Positions 15,732 through 24,150 of a stretch of DNA of 64,000 nt are shown here, piece by piece. Position 1 is the first letter of the stretch. The number at the start of each line of letters is the position of its first letter. The notes below the pieces were generated by a model. The model ran no database searches and had not been told where the DNA came from. It worked only from the letters and a program-made list of their open reading frames with translations. The stretch is from Luzula sylvatica (Eukaryota > Streptophyta > Magnoliopsida > Poales > Juncaceae), in the NCBI GenBank assembly GCA_946800325.1, contig OX326959.1:22683742-22747741 (forward strand). The letters are read 5' to 3'. A program made the translations under genes and the position numbers.

Positions 15732-15877
15732 TGTGCTAAGGAGAATCCACGAATCGAATCCAGAAATCGAATCCATCAGACGGAGGGGTATTTTCGTAAT
15801 TATTCAACTTCATCTTCACTTCACGCTCTCGCCTTCCTTCCTTCTCTCTCTGTCTCCTTCTCTCTCTTCTTCCTTCT

Positions 15878-16012
15878 CCGGCGAGTGAAAGAGGCGCCTC
15901 GCCTTCTCCCTTCTCCCTTCTCCGGCGAGTGAAAGAGGCGCCTCGCCTTCTCCCTTCTCCCTTCTCCCTTATCACTTCTCCCTTCTCCGGCGAGTGAAAG
16001 AGGCGCCTTGCC
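15878..16012. repeat. Short tandem repeat of a CT-rich leader unit
   Basis: Three copies of a GC-rich unit containing TTCTCCGGCGAGTGAAAGAG followed by GCGCC, separated by variable CCTTCTC runs. It looks like an expanded 5'-leader sequence next to the left terminus of the large element. Confidence 0.7.
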
Positions 16013-16127
16013 TTTTGCGTCGGAGCTCGAAACCGCCGGCCTTCCATCCATCACCTCTGGGTCTTTCTCTCTCTGTACACGTCCGTGTAGCTGATTGGGC
16101 ACTTTAAAAAAAATCGTGAATACATAC

Positions 16128-16350
16128 CATTCCCTGGAGCTCCTTGGGCACTTTAGCAATATTCTCACAATTTCCAATCGCATTGGCCAGCAAACAGAGG
16201 CTCGGTCGCCATGGCCACAGCAGTCTTGCTCTCATCCAAAGCCTGTACCACATGAACGACGCCAGGATGCCGGATCCGTACAAGCCTGGCCGCTTCAGCT
16301 CGAATCAGATCCAAAAATGCATCTTCAGCCGCCTTAGAAAGTCCAGCTTT
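16128..16350 (-). pseudogene. SCYL2-type (SCY1-like kinase) exon fragment
   Basis: Reads [20 protein letters not shown], then [20 protein letters not shown] and MATEPLFA, then after a frameshift [20 protein letters not shown] ending at a GT donor (ATG|GTATGT). This is the N-terminal part of the SCY1-like pseudokinase fold that serves clathrin-coated vesicle traffic in plants. The frame is broken once, and neither end of the gene is present. It is joined without a spacer to the eIF3b fragment upstream on the same strand. Confidence 0.85.
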
Positions 16351-16640
16351 AGACTGCAACGCCTTGTCTGTGTACCGTTGCCAGGTACGTTCCCATTGGA
16401 GACCATTGAATAAAGCTCTCAGTCCAGTACTATCCGAATTTTAACAAAATAATAATTAGTGCTATTCGAAATTCAATTGAAGAGAAAGAGAGCGAGAGAA
16501 AAAGGGTATACTTGGCGCTGATAGACGAGCTCAGGAAGCAATTGCCTCGCATCATTCCAAAATACTTTTGTGAATGTACCGGTACGAATTGCAAATTGAT
16601 CCCTAGCCTTCTCATCAGTAAGCCATTGCTGTAGATTTTC
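16351..16640 (-). pseudogene. eIF3 subunit b fragment, two exons
   Basis: Exon 16512-16640 reads ENLQQWLTDEKARDQFAIRT and FWNDARQLLPELVYQR. After a short GT-AG intron, exon 16351-16429 reads [20 protein letters not shown] then RQGVAV. These are the contiguous WD40-region exons of translation initiation factor eIF3b. The fragment stops mid-exon at GTTGCAGTC, where SCYL2 sequence begins. No frame break is visible within this piece. Confidence 0.87.
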
Positions 16641-16795
16641 CTGTTAACGTAAAAACAAAATTAGAAAAGAGAGAAATTATTAGTTCAATTTTTAAATGCA
16701 AGGAGAGAGAGAGAGAGACTGATTCGAGCTGAACAAAATCAGATCCAAAAATGACATCTTCAATTATCGAAAATTATCATTTTACCCTTGCAAAG

Positions 16796-16875
16796 GTATC
16801 CAAATGATCTGAAGAAAAGACAAAAAATTGATTCCATTTTAGACTGGCATCATTCCAATTTAAGACGCGGATCAA
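16796..16875 (+). pseudogene. Theta-class glutathione S-transferase exon fragment
   Basis: A single exon with AG acceptor and GTAAG donor reading YPNDLKKRQKIDSILDWHHS then NLRRGS, the start of the C-terminal helical domain of theta GSTs (family consensus ADL-KRAKI--VLDWHH-NLRRG). Only this exon is present, and it lies on the strand opposite to the eIF3b/SCYL2 piece. Confidence 0.82.
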
Positions 16876-20784: not shown

Positions 20785-21475
20785 TGCTTCTGAACTGAGA
20801 GAGAAAGAGAGGGATCGTCGGAGACCTACAGAACTCTCGTGAGGGGGAAATGAAGCTGGCGCGTGCATCCAAAGGCGATTTCTCTTTCTCCTTCGGTCGC
20901 TGCCGCGGATCTCTCTCCAGCAACTAGTAGTGACTCGCGGAGGGAGAGCGCGAGGGCGGTGAATCGACGGAAACTTCACCGGAAGGAGGATCTCGCGTGG
21001 GAAGGGGGACGGGGGAAGGGGTGAGCATGGTTGATCACTGAGTGTTAGTCGCTGGAGAAAAGAGAAGCGTGTGGGAGGGAGGGGAGTTGGTCCGATGGGC
21101 ATGGGACCAGATCACATCCATGCACAATTCTAGCCATTCGATCCCATCAAGATAAATTTTGATGATATATCATTAAACAGGAATTTAACTTCCGTTTGTA
21201 TACTCTCCGTTAGTAAACAAAAATAGAAGGAAGATCTTCTCCTTCATCCTTCACGTGAAACAATGGAAACTCATGTTTCCATCAATACAGAGGTGGGATA
21301 CCGTCGTACCGAAAGTATTTCAAGACACGGAGAGATTACCTTCTTCCTCCGGGTTTCTCTCGCACTCCATCCTATTCTCTGCTATTAGTTGTTTCGACTG
21401 CTCTCACTTTACCTTTCTTTTCTCCTCAATTTTCGCAGCCCCGTTAATTCTTCACACCGGCAACGATGTCGAGAA

Positions 21476-22252
21476 ATGACACGGTCATGGACTCTTCTTC
21501 ACCGGCTTTATCATCTTTTCATAAATGATGAACATGTTCCCCTTTCATCTTCTTCGAATGATCTTCATGGCTTTGGTATGTAAATTGTTCGACGAAATGT
21601 CTTTACAAAATTCTGACTTTTATAAGTATTTTCTTGAACAAACTTGTATCATTGATTAAATTAATTGTGAACAAACTTTGGTACCTACATATATGCATGT
21701 GATTTTGTTTGAATTAGATTGATGATCAAACTTTGGGTCAGAATATAGACAGATTTGTGTCTATATATTATTACTGGTATCAAATTTCGAAGTATTCCTG
21801 GTGTTATTGTTTTATGTGCCTATAGTAGATACCAGATTAAGTTTGTTTTCAAAATAATCTAATGCATTTTGAAGAATTTTAAACAATCTAATAATACGAA
21901 TTCATCAAATTTAATTTAATTTCTCGAACAAACTTGTATCGTTTGATTAAATTAATTGTCAGTATATAGTTAGAAATTAGATTTGAATATTCAAACTTAA
22001 TACGGTATAAAATGAATTGCAAAGTTTGGTACCTACATAGTGTTGTGTCATTTTTAATAGTATGAGTTATAATAATTTTATTTTTATCCATGTACAGAAA
22101 AATTCGAAATTAATGTGACGAATTCAAAAAATACACCCGAGTTCAAAAAACCTAATATCGGCATGGAGTATTCTACCACGGATGCGGTTTACGATTTTTA
22201 TAACAATTACGCGTGTCATGTTGGATTTAGCATTCAAATAAAATTAATGTGA
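21476..22252 (+). pseudogene. FAR1-like N-terminal fragment, two exons
   Basis: Exon 21476-21575 joins exon 22098-22252 to give a ~84-residue frame ending IGMEYSTTDAVYDFYNNYAC, HVGFSIQIK then stop. That is the opening of the FAR1 DNA-binding domain, and the rest of the domain is missing. It may be the transposase-related remnant of the large element or another captured host piece. Confidence 0.65.
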
Positions 22253-23430
22253 CGAACTCGTTAAATTTGTGGACAATTTAAAGTCATTGTGTGTTTCTTG
22301 TAGTCTACATGCGCAAGTATGAATGTTATGAACTTAGAATAAGTCGTCATTAATGATGATTGTTACAATGATATTATATTATATTAAAACTAGAATTAGA
22401 ATATGCTTACATTGAGGCAAAACATTATGAAGGAGTACAAAGATAACAAAAAATATATAAACAACACATATAAACAAAATCACGTAAACAAAATCATATA
22501 AACAATACATGTAAATAATGTATCATTGGTATACAAAAATTAAATAGAATCAACAAAACCATATGAACAATAAACAAGAACATATATAATCAAATATTGT
22601 TTGTAATCCACTTTTCTCTATACATTTCTTCCCAACACAAGATTTCTCTACTTCAATTATATATGTCAAACTAAAATAACCAAAAAAAAAAAAAATTAAT
22701 TGATTATATAAAAAGTCCCATAAATTAAATTAATTAACTGAATTGCTTACTAATTGCCTTTATTAGGAAGAAATGAGTGATTTTTTGCTAAGAGGTCCCT
22801 TGATCACCGAAATAAATTCAGCCAGAATCGTTGTATTTGAAACATATCGAAAATGAATTTTTGACCAAACCGCCCCTCGATAGAAAACTGGGTACCTATA
22901 TTTTGCCTAGATTGAGTCCGAGATGGTGACAACATGGTAAATGACGACTCTACTCGACTCCGACGGGTTTTACGGTTCCAATGTATTTTTCCTCCATAAT
23001 ATCATTTGTGAAATTCAATTATTTTGGTTTGATAAGTGGTTTTGTTGATTGAATTGGATTGAAAGATTTCTGATTGATTTTGTTTGGTTGAACAAAAGAA
23101 GTGTGTACCCGATTACTGTGATAATCTAATCGAGTGCCACAAGAAAGGATGTGTTTGGGGTTCCTATGTCTATCCATGTGTAATGTGACCTGCATGATTA
23201 TGGTTGATTATCGCATCGTATTAAGTGTTAATCGAATTGAATTCGACATGCTCCAGAGCTAAATCGATAGAATTCGACGTGCTCCGGAGCCTAACTGAAG
23301 TTCAATCCAAAATACTGTTCGGAGTATAATTCAGTTTGAAATCACTGAATTTCAATCAAATTCCAAACACAGTAAACAAGAAGAATGAAAATCAAAAGGA
23401 AAAAGACAAGATTTAGATTGCTACGGCTAC
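22253..23430. other. Spacer inside the large element, nothing recognised
   Basis: AT-rich. Contains two near-copies of GAATTCGACATGCTCC(A/G)GAGC near 23238 and 23270 but no coding homology I can name. Confidence 0.4.
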
Positions 23431-23434
23431 TAAA

Positions 23435-23710
23435 TTAGGAGCTGCCTTTAGCATCGAGACTATCAAAAGAAGCCGCAGAAGAAGCAACAACCACTGAAGG
23501 ATATCGTGAACTTTTGTTCTTACGATTTGATACAAGACTACCAAAATTTATTGGCCCGGAGAAGGGGCAAGAGGGTTGTACGAAGAGGTAAGTACGACAG
23601 CATAGGAGCAGATACCGTGGCGAGGAGGAGATGGCGACGACGGCATGCACCGTCCAGACTCCAGTCGGACGCTAGGGCTTCGCGCATCAGACGAAGAGAC
23701 TTCATATGAA
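23435..23710 (-). pseudogene. Unidentified N-terminal fragment, possibly a plastid-targeting region
   Basis: Minus-strand reading frames here are rich in Ser, Arg and Ala (SVVVASSAASFDSLDAKGSS at the end), consistent with a transit-peptide exon. The frame shifts once near 23560. The upstream 200 bases look like a 5' leader. I do not recognise the parent gene. It is probably another captured fragment, given its position just inside the right terminus. Confidence 0.35.
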
Positions 23711-24150
23711 TACTCCGTCGGTGAGCATCCAAAGACCGTTCACACTCACACTGGCACCGCCTTAGGCGAGATCAGCGATTGCTGCGGATTTTGCTTCTTG
23801 TGCCCTAGAAAGAGAAAGCGAGAGATTCAGCGAAGGTCTTGTCTTGTTTCAGGAGAGGAGAGATTTGATTTTCATTCTCGACTTGCTCGACTTGTGACTG
23901 ACTAACGGAGAGAGAGAGAAAGAATAGACAGAAGTAAATATTGTTTAATCATGATTTTATGATCTTATTTTGATGATGAAATCGGACGGTCCACAAATTG
24001 CATGGACCAGATATGATCCAATGACCACCGGACCTAACCCGCTCCCCGTGTGGGATAGGTGTTGGGTGTGAAAATTGTTAAAACATCCCTCCGTGTGTGG
24101 TTCTATTTTATTTAGGTCCTTGGATTCTTTTTGTGGATTCTAATTAGCAT

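Follow-up and report, generated by a model that had tools for sequence, protein, structure and literature searches.

We analysed a stretch of 64,000 nucleotides from Luzula sylvatica (the window; C4:22683742-22747741 in a 445-Mb genome of 37 contigs) and, within it, an element at 15733-24153 that is bounded by terminal inverted repeats (TIRs) and carries pieces of host genes on both sides of a satellite array. Window positions are given without a prefix, C1-C6 are chromosomes, and L-numbers (L007-L119) label individual genomic places. The imperfect inverted ends against TA/CT repeats reported in the original prediction were confirmed, with (TA)18 on the left and (CT)19(TA)33 on the right. These ends are inverted repeats of ~75 bp with indels, and their score of 63 was reached by 2 out of 500 random window pairs; the outermost left bases CAGGGC, present in relatives, are absent at 15733. 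The case for the element rests on its genomic copies rather than on the TIR score. Its features and flanks are:

15696-15732: (TA)18 tract, left flank (repeat scan)
15733-16056, plus strand: left terminus, with the TIR of ~75 bp and a subterminal region common to other copies (genome similarity search)
16106-16355, minus strand: piece of a gene that we take to be SCYL2 (parents C1:53808972, 95%, and C1:53833672, 94%)
16353-16722, minus strand: eIF3b piece, one exon and intron sequence (best parent C6:15899331, 96%)
16737-16757: filler DNA, within 16737-16762, which repeats 16303-16327 of the SCYL2 piece (96% over 26 aligned columns)
16758-16899, plus strand: glutathione S-transferase (GST) piece (parent C4:44698391, 93%)
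16898-17537, plus strand: GNAT acetyltransferase piece (parent C3:27256841, 96% to 17523, resuming after a 21-bp deletion)
17541-17780, plus strand: sulfite oxidase piece, Mo-co dimer domain (the whole piece matches C4:12939066 at 95%, part of it C6:2345591 at 98%)
17798-18111: block common to three other places (85-88%), one of them the family element L045
18392-19903, plus strand: central satellite, built of 22-bp units that form 119-bp higher-order repeats (43 units match at 16/22 or better, all in one direction)
19936-20321: block A, the predicted TPX2 stretch (C3:29313929, 89%; with block B at three places, 97%)
20319-20800, minus strand: block B, RAD23 exons 20319-20460 and 20650-20790 and the intron (three places, 98%; C2:37998692, 90%)
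20794-21076: right subterminal region, recurring before several right ends of the family at 90-94% (genome comparison)
21068-21076: first copy of CGTGTGGGA, the 9-bp target duplication of a nested element (second copy at 24047-24055)
21077-24046: nested 2.97-kb TIR element (GGGA.. ends), outside the capture unit, holding a FAR1-like stretch
24047-24153, minus strand: right terminus with the TIR (...GGATTCTAATTAGCATTTC), its first 9 bases being the second copy of that duplication
24152-24256: (CT)19 then (TA)33 tract, right flank (repeat scan)

Gene pieces and a nested insertion

We searched the left cargo against the genome, and fetched and compared the parent loci. The five pieces lead to intron-bearing genes on four chromosomes with 93-96% identity, and the parents extend into further exons beyond the captured stretch; several pieces also have paralogous alternative parents. 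The parents are thus dispersed. Three of the names proposed from the sequence alone held: eIF3b on the minus strand (PDB match, E 2.4e-4), GNAT (library match via the parent locus) and sulfite oxidase on the plus strand (library matches). The proposed theta GST is a GST as recognised via its parent locus, with Pfam matches below the cut-off, and its theta class is presumed. For the SCYL2 piece, which lies on the minus strand like eIF3b, parent loci were found; the name is our presumption from the parent sequence, and no library match supports it. Adjoining pieces share 3 bp (ACT) at the SCYL2/eIF3b junction and 2 bp (CA) at the GST/GNAT junction, and in the right cargo block A overlaps block B by 3 bp; these three overlaps in the studied copy carry no statistical claim. 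The GNAT piece, after its 21-bp deletion, runs almost directly into the sulfite oxidase piece.

In the right cargo, RAD23 on the minus strand was borne out by TIGR00601 (E 8e-10; Pfam ubiquitin matches were below the cut-off), while TPX2 at 19881-20057 found no support in Pfam and other profile-library searches, and that name stays unverified. Candidate source loci, as judged from identity, are C2:37998692 for block B (90%) and C3:29313929 for block A (89%). Both blocks occur together in the same order, 945-955 bp apart and at 97-98%, at C2:24842894-24844707, C1:40803181-40804994 and C1:44880300-44882123. The C2 place (L117) is itself a family copy, with a GG-type terminus ~0.35 kb beyond block B that matches 15733-15949 at 80%; there, blocks A and B are inverted relative to the ends and lie on the opposite side compared with the studied copy. 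From such arrangements, family copies seem to exchange and rearrange cargo.

A single capture unit of 8.4 kb, as originally proposed, was ruled out, as the nested element at 21077-24046 has to be set apart. It has its own TIRs (GGGAGGGGAGTTGGTCC / GGGAGCGGGTTAGGTCC) and, unlike the modules of the tract array described below, no tract flanks. The paralogue L043 is uninterrupted at the insertion point, and window positions 20026-21076 and 24047-24160 align to stretches of L043 that overlap by exactly 9 bp. As a search query, 23860-24151 splits at 24046/24047: the final 105 bases precede tracts in the copies displayed, and 23860-24046 is the end of another repeat with unrelated flanks. More than 20 of the places scored by the genome search match the right end of the nested element. 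The FAR1-type piece predicted as cargo does exist as a stretch (Pfam E 0.032, below the cut-off), but belongs to the nested element and not to the cargo of the outer one. Without the insert, the outer unit measures ~5.4 kb, in the range of 11 complete relatives (4.1-5.7 kb).

A dispersed family with a satellite core

The TIR core GCTAANNAGAATCCA was found at 939 places in the genome (469 forward, 470 reverse), as opposed to 4 places (1 forward, 3 reverse) for the reversed control pattern, and the left end of the studied copy has many relatives among the 40 candidates scored in the genome search. We took a census of TIR pairs from the first 100 of the 939 core places, which cover C1 up to 44.9 Mb. 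These contained 9 short (212-311 bp) and 13 long (2.6-17 kb) convergent pairs, and all the long pairs were examined (L045-L053, L107, L108, L113/L114 and L115/L116). The satellite was present in 11 of the 13: in nine Pack-type copies (L045-L053), in a tenth that is interrupted by an insert, and in one coding copy. The split copy (L115/L116, 40776360-40790916 within C1:40776200-40791150) contains 0.96-kb direct repeats (96.5% identical) around a long open reading frame (ORF), and this insert is read as a nested long terminal repeat retrotransposon from its structure. L107 and L108 were considered as coding copies; they lack the array, and inspection of their ORFs by eye, with no library search, revealed no transposase.

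The nine copies L045-L053, together with L040 (C6) and L041 (C3), which were picked by similarity and also carry the satellite, make up 11 complete Pack-type copies, with 4,084-5,733 bp between the TIR cores. With terminal regions and satellite excluded, only 448 out of 30,888 cargo bases (1.5%) match another of the eleven. The ends and the satellite core are therefore constant, and the remainder turns over. Long copies usually have ends of the AT, CT or TT type, as do 24 of the 100 listed ends; extrapolated roughly, this points to a couple of hundred long copies genome-wide. The search for further copies, alike in their ends and microsatellite flanks but not in their cargo, thus gave an affirmative answer, and the proposal of a gene-shuffling family associated with (TA)n tracts is upheld by many copies with differing cargo and by the dispersed parents of the left cargo.

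Sister copies share parts of the studied one. L039 has the left kilobase in common (93%), L041 the SCYL2 exon, L109 the GNAT and sulfite oxidase pieces (92%) and L043 the right kilobase (94%). L110 contains the SCYL2, GST and GNAT/sulfite oxidase blocks at 97-98%, with ~0.9 kb of other DNA in place of eIF3b. This sharing by single blocks looks like stepwise gain and loss. We also compared ten ORFs from five other copies with Pfam. Three gave matches: Ca-ATPase and QWRF in L053, and Fumble, just below the cut-off, in L045, the last without a fitting PDB match; the other seven had no Pfam match.

The satellite had been predicted as one item of content among others. The array is indeed there, but as a constant core of the long copies. 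At the 16/22 threshold used for the studied array, the 11 complete Pack-type copies hold 37-58 forward and 0-2 reverse units each, and satellite and ends keep one relative orientation in all 11. The 22-bp unit was also found, inverted, in both arms of 7/7 miniature inverted-repeat transposable elements (MITEs) of the family that we tested; the seven are related, and so not independent. The best match was 18-20/22 in one arm and 17-18/22 in the other, and at least one arm held another copy at a spacing of exactly 22 bp, whereas 200 Markov-resampled sequences per MITE gave means of 13.5-13.8 and none reached the observed best. The test left out L056, which duplicates L055 almost exactly, and the 311-bp variant L061, in which a separate scan detected no 22-bp unit at its threshold. 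Because the unit is present in the arms of all seven MITEs, the satellite array apparently expanded from the 22-bp subterminal repeat of the family itself.

A coding relative and the target sites

One long pair, L113/L114 (17.2 kb, about C1:39123679-39140851), has exact TIR cores at both ends and a 10-bp duplication, CATACATATA; its ends are of the AT type and the GG type, like those of the Pack copies. Seven of its ten ORFs matched Pfam, revealing FAR1 (7.8e-16), MULE (the Mutator-like element transposase domain, 2.7e-26), SWIM (5.4e-5) and Peptidase_C48 (3.6e-16). There were, in addition, three DUF1985 matches (1.7e-6, 1.2e-3 and 4.3e-5), all below the cut-off, two of which also matched PMD, likewise below it. 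Thus one copy bounded by the family TIRs encodes a MULE transposase. Several arrays of the 22-bp unit are present in both orientations; that long ORFs do not overlap these arrays is no evidence by itself, since the satellite permits no long ORF. To judge from its ORFs, the copy may be decayed or intron-rich.

Among the best 150 of 436 candidates, the MULE exon of L113/L114 has 12 relatives at 89-96%, followed by a gap to ~52% and less. Because of this drop, the coding lineage is, judging by identity, a small family of its own. Three of these further coding places were inspected: L119 has satellite units (17/22 bases, a score reached by 0/200 resampled sequences), and the other two have none above chance (36/200 and 24/200 resampled sequences reach the best score). 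A general genome search with the MULE domain covered the best 150 of 673 candidates, the lowest at 93.9 bits, and L113/L114, at 92.3 bits, is not among these. Two coding MULEs adjoining family copies (L111 and L112) showed no family TIR beyond that of the neighbouring copy. The one in L112 (105-4694, C1:22012904-22017493), a FAR1-type coding MULE by eye and by a MULE-domain match, has 86% TIRs between TA/GT tracts and directly adjoins a MITE of the studied family.

We then consider where the family inserts. A dinucleotide tract of at least 8 bp lies within 60 bp outside 32 of 42 ends (40 places; 41 of the 56 unpaired ends among the 100 listed, and one paired), and each of the 11 complete Pack-type copies is flanked by such tracts on both sides. 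Outside tracts, exact 11-bp duplications flank L057 (AAATTATGATA) and L102 (AATAATATAAT), and L081 has an 11-bp duplication with one mismatch in the same register as these two; the flank of L046 is paralogous to the L102 site and lacks the insertion. The 11-bp duplications are suggestive singly, and count together. Duplications outside long tracts are 10-11 bp, none being exactly 9, the length typical of Pack-MULEs, and within tracts they are unreadable.

The studied element is part of a tract array at 13695-24256, in which a 266-bp element, (TA), a 1.66-kb TIR element, (TA), the outer element and (CT)(TA) follow one another. The two further modules are:

13731-13996: short 266-bp element, module 1, between (AT) at 13695-13730 and (TA) at 13997-14034
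14035-15695: 1.66-kb TIR element, module 2, with another TIR (GAGTAAAGCTAAAGTACTTAATTAAG), adjoining (TA)18 at 15696-15732

Both stand head to tail with the outer element, and the TIRs of the 1.66-kb module are long and near-identical. Un-nested modular arrays of unrelated elements are also present at L111 and L112, and a second array of short elements, spaced by (AT)/(TA)/(AG) tracts, was noted at 55602-56190. By eye, the TIRs of neighbouring tract-flanked families start GG..TGCTAA-like, as do those of the studied family and the mask of MuTAnT, a Medicago family discussed below; this common start hints at one clade of tract-targeting transposases.

Interpretation and comparison with known systems

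The locus is very probably a non-autonomous, gene-capturing MULE whose large family inserts chiefly into tracts of TA and other dinucleotides. We place it among MULEs because of the 10-11-bp duplications outside long tracts and the MULE transposase in a copy with the same TIRs. The original prediction held that the element falls outside Pack-MULE rules; this was not supported, as 10-11 bp is within the 8-11 bp given for MULE duplications (PMC5907723) and the transposase copy is full-length.

Several observations weigh against this assignment. The outer TIR pair is weak by itself, its score being modestly above chance, and the names SCYL2 and TPX2 are without library support. Two of the 13 long pairs (L107, L108) lack the satellite array, and L043 has the right end yet no satellite unit in the 3.9 kb beyond the common part. 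The family TIRs were linked to a single coding copy, the ORFs of which are split, so that it may not be autonomous at present; at the three further coding places (of 12), 251 bp at the matching distance contained no family TIR. The duplications were read at few tract-less ends (L057, L102, L081 and L113/L114), and L095, another tract-less copy, gave none. The search for them was free in register and length, and one of six AT-rich flank cross-pairings also matched over 11 bp. Finally, CATACATATA sits in repeat-rich flanks, and the MITE register gives one mismatch over 11 bp.

Could the locus have no capture unit at all, and owe its structure between TA tracts to ordinary segmental duplications or nested insertions? 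A nested element does exist at 21077-24046, some blocks are common to copies, and A and B recur in the same order at three other places. However, the parents of the left cargo are on four chromosomes, complete copies measure 4.1-5.7 kb, and the same ends and satellite recur around unrelated cargo, which refutes this explanation for the outer unit and leaves it very improbable overall. Rolling-circle capture by a Helitron or Helentron would account for captured genes with introns and for a central tandem array. Helitrons are not known to have TIRs or a target duplication, and the studied family has both. Satellite-like arrays have been reported in oyster Helentrons (PMC7492417), but TIRs at both ends, the 10-11-bp duplications and a MULE transposase enclosed by these ends in one copy make such an origin extremely improbable.

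Another alternative, proposed for the SaTar elements, is that the tract flanks come from circular intermediates recombining into microsatellites, and not from a transposase that chooses TA (argued in the available part of PMC5907723). The unequal flanks of the outer element, (TA) on the left versus (CT)(TA) on the right, and the tract arrays of unrelated modules are in its favour. Yet outside long tracts the 10-11-bp duplications are AT-rich, which resembles a continuum in the ordinary choice of targets, and we consider recombination of circles somewhat unlikely. The satellite core, in turn, might be functionless, a slippage-prone remnant of subterminal repeats. Tandem repeats expand readily, and L107 and L108 do without the array, so that this is a real possibility, although we lean against it: the array is found in 11/13 long pairs while the cargo turns over almost fully, and nearly all units keep one direction relative to the ends in 11/11 complete Pack-type copies.

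For a gene-capturing MULE, the following course of events can be proposed. The transposase of the coding copy, or of a relative, would move all the forms by cut-and-paste. Pack forms would start when the interior of a coding or an earlier Pack element breaks, the break being repaired with scattered genes and other copies of the family as templates, via microhomology-guided template switching. The satellite would grow from the family's own 22-bp subterminal repeat, and may be kept since an element-encoded protein binds the array, or since instability of the array provokes breaks.

VANDALs are MULE-type elements, and DUF1985 also occurs in Ulp1-type genes. In Arabidopsis, the DUF1985-containing VANC proteins of VANDALs bind to short motifs arranged as tandem repeats in non-coding DNA, and induce loss of methylation (PMC5735166 and PMC10398659). 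L113/L114 similarly has DUF1985-like ORFs, below the Pfam cut-off, and 22-bp arrays; VANDAL TIRs are described in those texts as degenerated, unlike the TIRs of the studied family. By analogy, the satellite core could be a portable anti-silencing or transposase-loading platform recognised by the DUF1985-type protein of the coding copy. We regard this as quite unlikely. If true, Pack copies that keep the array would stay active in trans while the rest of them becomes pieces of host genes, and captured exons would move between TA tracts with an un-silencing module of their own. L113/L114 also has a Ulp1 protease ORF beside MULE genes, like the Kaonashi (KIU) MULEs; Arabidopsis KIU are called non-TIR MULEs in the accessible portion of PMC13317346, whereas the studied family has clear TIRs, tract flanks and satellite arrays.

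The closest systems in targeting are already published, so that the claim of a wholly undescribed kind of element was not borne out. SaTars of guayule, rice, sorghum and citrus are non-autonomous MULEs of ~0.23-1.9 kb, found mostly in TA and other microsatellites, and three rice families are described as non-Pack-MULEs (PMC5907723, partial text). The studied family resembles them in its microsatellite sites (32/42 ends, and both ends of 11/11 Pack-type copies), in its duplications outside tracts (10-11 bp, against 8-11 bp in SaTars), in the un-nested linear arrays of unrelated families and in the MULE partners within such arrays. It differs in that its long copies of 4.1-5.7 kb contain host-gene cargo and a satellite, neither captured genes nor a satellite core being described in the same part of PMC5907723. 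MuTAnT/AutoMuTAnT of Medicago likewise combines targeting of TA microsatellites with a mudrA-like partner and MITEs of mostly 200-300 bp, and its TIR mask GGGGTTTGCTAGAACA resembles (CAGG)CTTGCTAAGG of the studied family by eye. In contrast to the studied family, MuTAnT has a 9-bp duplication and foldback MITEs, with no cargo or satellite reported (both comparisons from the available sections of PMC4486113).

In cargo, the family is like Pack-MULEs and Pack-TIRs, in which non-transposon sequence is captured between TIRs (PMC8277862, available sections); here, fragments of host genes lie between MULE TIRs, as documented by the parents of five left pieces and by Ca-ATPase and QWRF in L053. For Pack-TIRs in animals, the same sections give a median breakpoint microhomology of 2 bp and propose template switching, and they describe Pack-MULEs and Pack-TIRs without microsatellite targeting or a conserved satellite core. 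No description of microsatellite targeting, gene capture and a satellite core together was noticed among the open-licence PMC papers listed. With its hundreds of ends, its readable junctions, a coding relative and sister copies whose differences come down to individual blocks, the family is a good system for studying capture, tract choice and the origin of dispersed satellites, and shows one route by which gene parts are mixed in bulk in genomes. Its targeting is like that of SaTar and MuTAnT and its cargo like that of Pack-MULEs, uniting microsatellite-targeting and gene-capturing MULEs, which are separate in the literature compared; the constant satellite core, with near-complete turnover of the cargo around it, is the new feature.

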